A DNA stretch of 32,547 nt from Treponema sp. Its GTDB lineage: Bacteria; Spirochaetota; Spirochaetia; Treponematales; Breznakiellaceae. The translations under genes and the position numbers were made by a program. The notes under the pieces were generated by a model. The model searched no databases. It was not told where the DNA came from and saw nothing but the letters and a program-made list of their open reading frames with translations. The stretch lies in contig JAISTO010000098.1 in NCBI GenBank assembly GCA_031272575.1, positions 1 through 32,547 on the forward strand. Direction: 5' to 3'. Positions 7,614 through 32,547 of this stretch are shown in pieces (position 1 is the stretch's first letter; every line of letters begins with the position of its first letter).

Positions 7614-7832
7614 GCAGCAATTCTCAGAAGTGAAAACAGTCCACAGATAATCACCGATTTTCACCAATTAAAGGCACGATTAGTAATAAAAAATCTGTGT
7701 TTATTTGTGTAAATCTGTGGACAAATTTTTAATGTTAACTTTTTCGGAGTGGGCTCAGTTTTATTCCTCCGTGTTCTTTGTGTGCTTTGTGAGAAAATTT
7801 TCCCAAAATTCGGTCAAAATGAGAACTGCTGC
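7614..7832. mobile_element. Candidate MITE-like intergenic element, 219 bp, with 13-bp TIRs (1 mismatch)
   Basis: GCAGCAATTCTCA at 7614-7626 and TGAGAACTGCTGC at 7820-7832; internal 10-bp inverted repeat GTCCACAGAT (7639-7648) / ATCTGTGGAC (7713-7722); box TTTTCGGAGTGGGCTCA (7741-7757) shared with 32126-32142. Confidence 0.55.
7691..7720. repeat. Three degenerate 10-mers AAATCTGTGT / TTATTTGTGT / AAATCTGTGG
   Basis: Direct reading; contiguous 10-nt register. Confidence 0.8.
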
Positions 7833-10329: not shown

Positions 10330-10359
10330 ACGCGCTTACGCGCCTCCCTCCCCCCCTCC

Positions 10360-10388
10360 TTGACAAAAGCGCCTAAAATCACTATAGT
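10360..10388 (+). promoter_or_regulatory. pyrG promoter: TTGACA (10360-10365), 17-nt spacer, TATAGT (10383-10388)
   Basis: Consensus hexamers; C-rich tract upstream; ATG at 10397, 8 nt after the -10. Confidence 0.85.
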
Positions 10389-16278: not shown

Positions 16279-19307
<3,029 letters not shown>

Positions 19308-31920: not shown

Positions 31921-31952
31921 GTGCGCATCTCGGTGCGCTGCCCCCCCCTTGA

Positions 31953-32156
31953 CAGCAATTTGAGTCTACTCTGAAAAGTCAGCAATTAAGTAAGTAAACG
32001 CGAATGGTGGGCAACTTTGTTGCCCCCGAATTATCACGAATAATACCACATACAATTCTTAAAATTCGCGTTCATTCGTGTAATTCGCGGACCGCATTTA
32101 TGCGGCAAATTCTTGAATTCTTGACTTTTCGGAGGGGGCTCAAATGAGAATTGCTG
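31953..32156. mobile_element. Candidate MITE-like intergenic element, 204 bp, imperfect ~28-34 bp TIRs
   Basis: Left end CAGCAATTTGAGTCTACTCTGAAAAGTC (31953-31980) is the inverted relative of right end GACTTTTCGGAGGGGGCTCAAATGAGAATTGCTG (32123-32156), with a 6-nt indel; CCCCCTTGACA occurs as a direct repeat at 31944-31954 and 32168-32178. Confidence 0.55.
32009..32025. repeat. Perfect hairpin GGGCAAC-TTT-GTTGCCC
   Basis: 7-bp perfect stem, 3-nt loop, inside the 31953-32156 element. Confidence 0.85.
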
Positions 32157-32172
32157 GGCGCCCCGCACCCCC

Positions 32173-32201
32173 TTGACAAAAGCCCCCCGCCGTGCTATAT
32201 T
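32173..32201 (+). promoter_or_regulatory. Promoter of the rpn-like gene: TTGACA (32173-32178), 17-nt spacer, TATATT (32196-32201)
   Basis: Consensus hexamers; CCCCC abuts the -35; ATG 32208 lies 6 nt after the -10. Confidence 0.85.
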
Positions 32202-32207
32202 CCTGGT

Positions 32208-32547
32208 ATGGCAACCGTGAATAACACCGACGCCCGCGTCTCAAGCCCCTGAACGACTTCGCGTTCCAGAAGTCTATGGGTGAGCCTGGGGACGAGGAGC
32301 AACTTACCGGCTTCCTCAAGGCGGCGCTCAGAAAAACCGGGAAGGAGGACGTTTCCTCCGTCACCATCCTGAAAGGCAAAGACCTGCCCGCCGAGATCGC
32401 CGGGCGCAAGGCGGCCCGGTTCGACGTCCTCGCCGAGGCCAGGATCAGCATGGCAAAGAGCGATGTCAACCTGGAGGCGCAGATCAAGAACGAGTACAAC
32501 ATCAGGAAACGCTCGCCCTTCTATTGGGCAAAGAAGTACGTCGAAAA
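32208..32547 (+). pseudogene. Rpn family recombination-promoting nuclease / PD-(D/E)XK putative transposase, N-terminally frameshifted and truncated by the window edge
   Basis: MATVNNTDAR in frame 1, then LKPLNDFAFQKSMGEPGDEEQLTGFLKAAL...AARFDVLAEARISMAKSDVNLEAQIKNEYNIRKRSPFYWAKKYVE in another frame. Missing from the ORF track because it runs off the edge. Confidence 0.8.

Follow-up and report, generated by a model that had tools for sequence, protein, structure and literature searches.

Near the right-hand end of the window, the 32,547-nucleotide stretch of Treponema sp. DNA analysed here in its entirety, lies a 180-bp miniature element (positions 31962 to 32141, forward strand) that is very probably a MITE of a family we call G, mobilised in trans by an IS1182-like DDE transposase and landed in, or later trimmed inside, a member of a second family, O. 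Family G has dispersed copies with common ends, target duplications, empty sites restored at nested copies and longer, transposase-bearing relatives in other phyla. That an IS1182-like transposase moved the host copies we infer, because the host assembly, which is 75% complete and broken at repeats, yielded no transposase of family G.

Copies, ends and target duplications of family G

A search of the host assembly (2.3 Mb in 226 contigs) with the window region returned 88 matches, partial and full copies together, and the TIR core TTTTCRGAGKRGRCTC, allowing one mismatch at most, occurs 90 times in that assembly compared with once for the reversed pattern, which bears out an earlier, sequence-only reading of the region as one of a family of dispersed elements that have TIRs. 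The ends were set by aligning 15 full-length copies and by 33 adjacent TIR pairs. The aligned copies have a left consensus of GAGTCYRCTCYGAAAAGTCAGCAATTAAG(T/A)AAGTAAACGCGAAT... and a right consensus of ...AAATTCTTGAATTCTTGACTTTTCGGAG(T/G)RGRCTC, and their similarity ends directly beyond both. Since the copies share these ends and diverge right outside them, the element is 31962 to 32141, bounded by 19-bp TIRs, GAGTCTACTCTGAAAAGTC on the left (31962 to 31980) and GACTTTTCGGAGGGGGCTC on the right (32123 to 32141). The ends originally proposed, 31953 to 31980 and 32123 to 32156, are indeed inverted: positions 31958 to 31987 and 32116 to 32145 pair over 30 nt with 80% complementarity, and this best inverted 30-mer of the region (24/30) exceeds the maximum of 21 reached by dinucleotide shuffles (n = 300). 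As limits of the element those positions were wrong, and aligning family members, the route to exact ends that had been suggested, places CAGCAATT and TGAGAATTGCTG outside it, as parts of another family. Short, with TIRs and no internal gene seen, and present in many dispersed copies with constant ends, the element has the make-up of a MITE. Numerous copies sit at contig ends, as is expected because repeats break assemblies. Beyond the host, no related copies were found in 57 genomes of the same family and order except for a weak match in one (G028), and among 344 genomes of the phylum the TIR core turned up in the host and G028 and, at a single site, in G319, but in no other.

Direct repeats do flank other copies, but they measure 5 bp, not 11 bp, and abut GAG/CTC. 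Perfect 5-bp repeats (AACGT, AAATC, GAATT, ATTTT and AATTT) occur at 5 of the 33 adjacent host TIR pairs where 0.86 would be expected (permutation p = 0.00025), and a perfect 6-bp repeat at none of them. At the window copy, whose flanks are AATTT and AAATG, a target duplication is missing, so that duplication is seen at the level of the family and not at this site. Empty sites come from paralogous positions at two loci, L048 and L039, where one G element is nested within another: removal of the inner element and one 5-bp repeat from L048 leaves a sequence that matches the intact copy L015 over 73 bp, across the junction and with no gap, and the same removal at L039 gives a similar restoration, the small gaps there lying clear of the junction.

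The same TIR in other phyla and a candidate transposase

Among the matches listed, contigs with the TIR sequence TGACTTTTCGGAGKRGRCTC number more than 100 and come from Bacteroidota, Cloacimonadota, Chlorobiota and Thiotrichaceae; one viral contig has it as well. Outside the host this TIR mostly forms inverted pairs 90 to 330 bp apart with unrelated interiors. Perfect 6-bp repeats of the form AANNTT flank 26 of 46 such pairs (1.65 expected; 0 of 20,000 permutations gave as many), and perfect repeats of 4, 5 or 7 to 10 bp flank none of the 46. One 19-bp TIR is therefore associated with two duplication lengths, 6 bp in other phyla (L098 to L177) and 5 bp in the host, from which it follows that the partner transposases may differ; among related elements, duplication or repeat lengths of 4, 5 and 6 bp all occur.

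Two TIR pairs more than 1 kb apart, L100 and L150, were examined. The first (L100, 1309 to 3174, 1866 bp from TIR to TIR) contains a gene for a 566-aa IS1182-like transposase, and the second (L150, 1296 bp, with the same TIRs) a truncated IS1182-like transposase 34% identical to it. A DUF772 domain is present in both genes, as is similarity of the IS1182 type (E = 5e-30 and 5e-13, respectively), with protein scores below the curated NCBIfam cut-off for IS1182. The chief argument for the nature of the mobilising enzyme is the presence of this gene in both longer elements, which were found by their TIRs alone; through them, in other phyla, family G has TIRs in common with an autonomous element of IS1182 type. 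No homolog of the L100 transposase was detected in the host genome or in a plasmid search.

On this evidence, the 19-bp TIRs would be of a kind to which an IS1182-like DDE transposase, with DUF772 as its N-terminal domain, binds; acting in trans, this enzyme would cut at GAG/CTC and paste the element into A+T-rich targets of 5 bp in the host and 6 bp in Bacteroidota. The autonomous partner would be an IS1182-like gene flanked by GAGTCYRCTCCGAAAAGTC ends, and the window copy would have landed in, or later been trimmed within, a family-O element. Speaking against this preferred account are the missing host transposase, the window copy's own want of a target duplication in a genome where only 5 of 33 pairs have perfect ones, the sub-threshold scores of the L100 and L150 proteins and the difference in duplication length between phyla. 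An IS5-like DUF772 gene on contig C124 was considered as partner and rejected, having its own TIR, GGCAACGCTGATTAATTC, and being broken off beside a G copy; this gene fragment adjoining GGCAACGCTGATTAATTC (L227, host contig C124, 120 to 760) is a sign of a third family. A GxxExxY protein was likewise rejected as an associated gene, as it is absent from the host genome.

Family O, the 11-bp repeat and the element's interior

With at most one mismatch, TGAGAATTGCTGC occurs 35 times in the host assembly against 2 for its control, and paired copies delimit a second MITE family, O, of structure CAGCAATTCTCA...TGAGAATTGCTG, whose short forms measure 40, 131 and 136 bp. Its ends carry a perfect 9-bp flanking repeat, CAAGGGGGC, at L084 and an 8/9 repeat at L240; with one perfect and one imperfect case, a duplication length of 9 bp is tentative. 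At the window site, sequence comparison of copies identifies CAGCAATT (31953 to 31960, reverse strand) as an outer end of family O in degenerate form, and TGAGAATTGCTG (32145 to 32156, forward strand), correctly reported before as exact at the right end, as an exact family-O end. As both lie outside the G ends and belong to family O, the window copy is a G element nested in O remnants. G elements are often located in an O end where AAATG is followed by AGAATTGCTG, and the right junction in the window matches this arrangement at L216 and others; at L216 the remainder of the O element is kept on the far side, with a near-perfect AGATG/AAATG. The left junction, CAGCAATT-T followed by GAG, is a shortened O end, probably short by about 6 nt relative to CAGCAATTCTCATTT followed by GAG in L028 and L212, which would imply a deletion. 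A further O element in the window (7615 to 7831) has both ends, an interior of TCTGTG words and an embedded G right TIR (7741 to 7756).

Such nesting raises the possibility, which we regard as real though clearly the lesser one, that the mobile unit was a composite O-G-O and that family O, with its TIR CAGCAATTCTCA and tentative 9-bp duplication, brought the G copy here. O ends stand on both sides of G at this site, several other G copies share the same junction of AAATG with AGAATTGC, and the O ends at L084 and L240 carry the repeats described above; yet the left O end is incomplete in the window, and the flanks CCCCCTTGA and GGCGCCCCG form no duplication. A copy without direct repeats could also have arisen by a different route, in which the element takes the place of an inverted repeat and no target is duplicated, as is reported for IS1272 of the IS1182 family (PMC5678879); the window flanks are themselves inverted (CAGCAATT..AATTGCTG), as are those at L218, L009 and L100. 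We consider this route improbable, however, given that most pairs in other phyla (26/46) have exact-length duplications and that the host has some as well.

The sequence-only reading had offered another hypothesis, that insertion of a unit of about 213 bp had duplicated an 11-bp target, CCCCCTTGACA, and parted a -35 from its -10. Both copies of CCCCCTTGACA are where it placed them, at 31944 to 31954 and 32168 to 32178 on the forward strand, and identical 11-mers 224 bp apart do bracket the element. It was right, too, that the left copy lacks a -10 and that the right copy supplies the -35 of a good promoter (32173 to 32201; TTGACA-17-TATATT, extended -10), downstream of the element and upstream of a gene for a PDDEXK_2/Rpn-like protein (TIGR01784; 32208 to 32547, forward strand). 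The motif, a C-tract joined to a -35, is nevertheless common, with 48 exact occurrences in the host genome against 1 for the control, a third one in the window lying at 127 to 137. Between the right copy and the O end there are 11 nt, between it and the G end 26 nt, and CCCCCTTGACA abuts neither G end nor the right O end. The promoter block around it, CCCCGCA..CCCCCTTGACAAAAGCCCCC.GCCGTGCTATATTCCTG, of which the intervening CCCCGCA is a part, recurs on contig C92 without the element, and other copies have 5-bp duplications at GAG/CTC. Since the motif is so frequent, abuts no family end and belongs to a promoter block that stands elsewhere alone, it is not a target duplication: the flanking copies are independent promoter-type motifs, and an insertion splitting -35 from -10 is not needed to explain them. 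The 213-bp unit, which would be incompatible with an allele keeping GGGCGCCCCGCA beside a single CCCCCTTGACA, is accordingly very unlikely. A C-tract immediately upstream of TTGACA, found at 127 to 137, 10355 to 10365 and 17951 to 17961 of the window as well, appears to be a promoter style that recurs in the organism. Nothing points to the element as a regulator of the Rpn-like gene. That gene is cut by the contig end and shifts frame after about 10 codons, opening with MATVNNTDAR and continuing in another frame (RLKPLNDFAFQK) within 32208 to 32250, by frameshift or assembly error.

Least probable of all is a non-mobile structured RNA or regulatory repeat under selection: the folded strand is strong (z = -5.4), but this follows from the TIRs, an Rfam search with the element gave no match, exact-ended copies occur inside one another and show duplications and empty sites, and the same TIR encloses unrelated interiors in other phyla.

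Two perfect hairpins noted in the interior, GGGCAAC-TTT-GTTGCCC (GGGCAACTTTGTTGCCC, 32009 to 32025) and CCGCAT-TT-ATGCGG (CCGCATTTATGCGG, 32092 to 32105), are present, each in some copies and not in others, and the TTCGCG/TTCGTG words, likewise noted, form an array at 32064 to 32089 (forward strand) whose complement, CGCGAAT words, is found in the left half. The micro-hairpin GCAACNNNGTTGC occurs at 32011 to 32023 and in 55 other places of the host assembly (56 against 1 for the reversed control), many of them within MITE copies, where it comes or goes at positions otherwise taken by short linkers that separate words, and about 20 elsewhere; GGCGATATATCGCC and CCGCATTTATGCGG are similar hairpins. 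MITE-like inserts with ends GGAAACGCTGATTAAT, assigned with the C124 gene fragment to the third family, are nested in the family-G interiors of L039 and L016. It is conceivable, if rather unlikely, that the interiors are modular, with arrays of six-letter words (TTCGCG, TCTGTG, TCCGTG, TTTGTG) and micro-hairpins of 13 to 21 bp such as GCAACNNNGTTGC exchanged among copies and also across MITE families whose TIRs are unrelated, and that the micro-hairpins could be tiny mobile units entering MITEs.

Family G beside known IS1182-type elements

The ends and likely mobilising transposase type are now fixed for a MITE family whose TIR is common to several bacterial phyla, and a false reading of the 11-bp repeat as a target duplication has been removed. 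With one TIR flanked by exact 5-bp or 6-bp duplications, what determines duplication length in IS1182-like transposases becomes testable. The window element is ordinary in kind, since MITEs of ISMac2, an IS1182-family element, have been described from Methanosarcina acetivorans as gene-less sequences of 160-169 bp in 7-14 copies, with IRs of 25-26 bp and DRs listed as 4 or 0 (PMC3852290). Family G resembles them in being gene-less and in having TIRs of the IS1182-family type, and differs in its 19-bp TIR, its duplications of 5 bp (host) or 6 bp (other phyla) and in that the host yielded no partner IS. IS1272, which replaces an inverted repeat and makes no duplication (PMC5678879), is alike in its IS1182-type transposase and inverted-repeat association, whereas family G makes duplications of 5-6 bp. 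Closer to the host, a genome of the same class (G249) contains an IS1182-like element (L245, L247-L249) with a transposase 30% identical to that of L100 and a TIR, TGACTCCCCTGAAAAAAG, resembling TGAGTCCACTCCGAAAAG; unlike family G, it is full-length at about 1.9 kb, with 4-bp flanking repeats and a different TIR.
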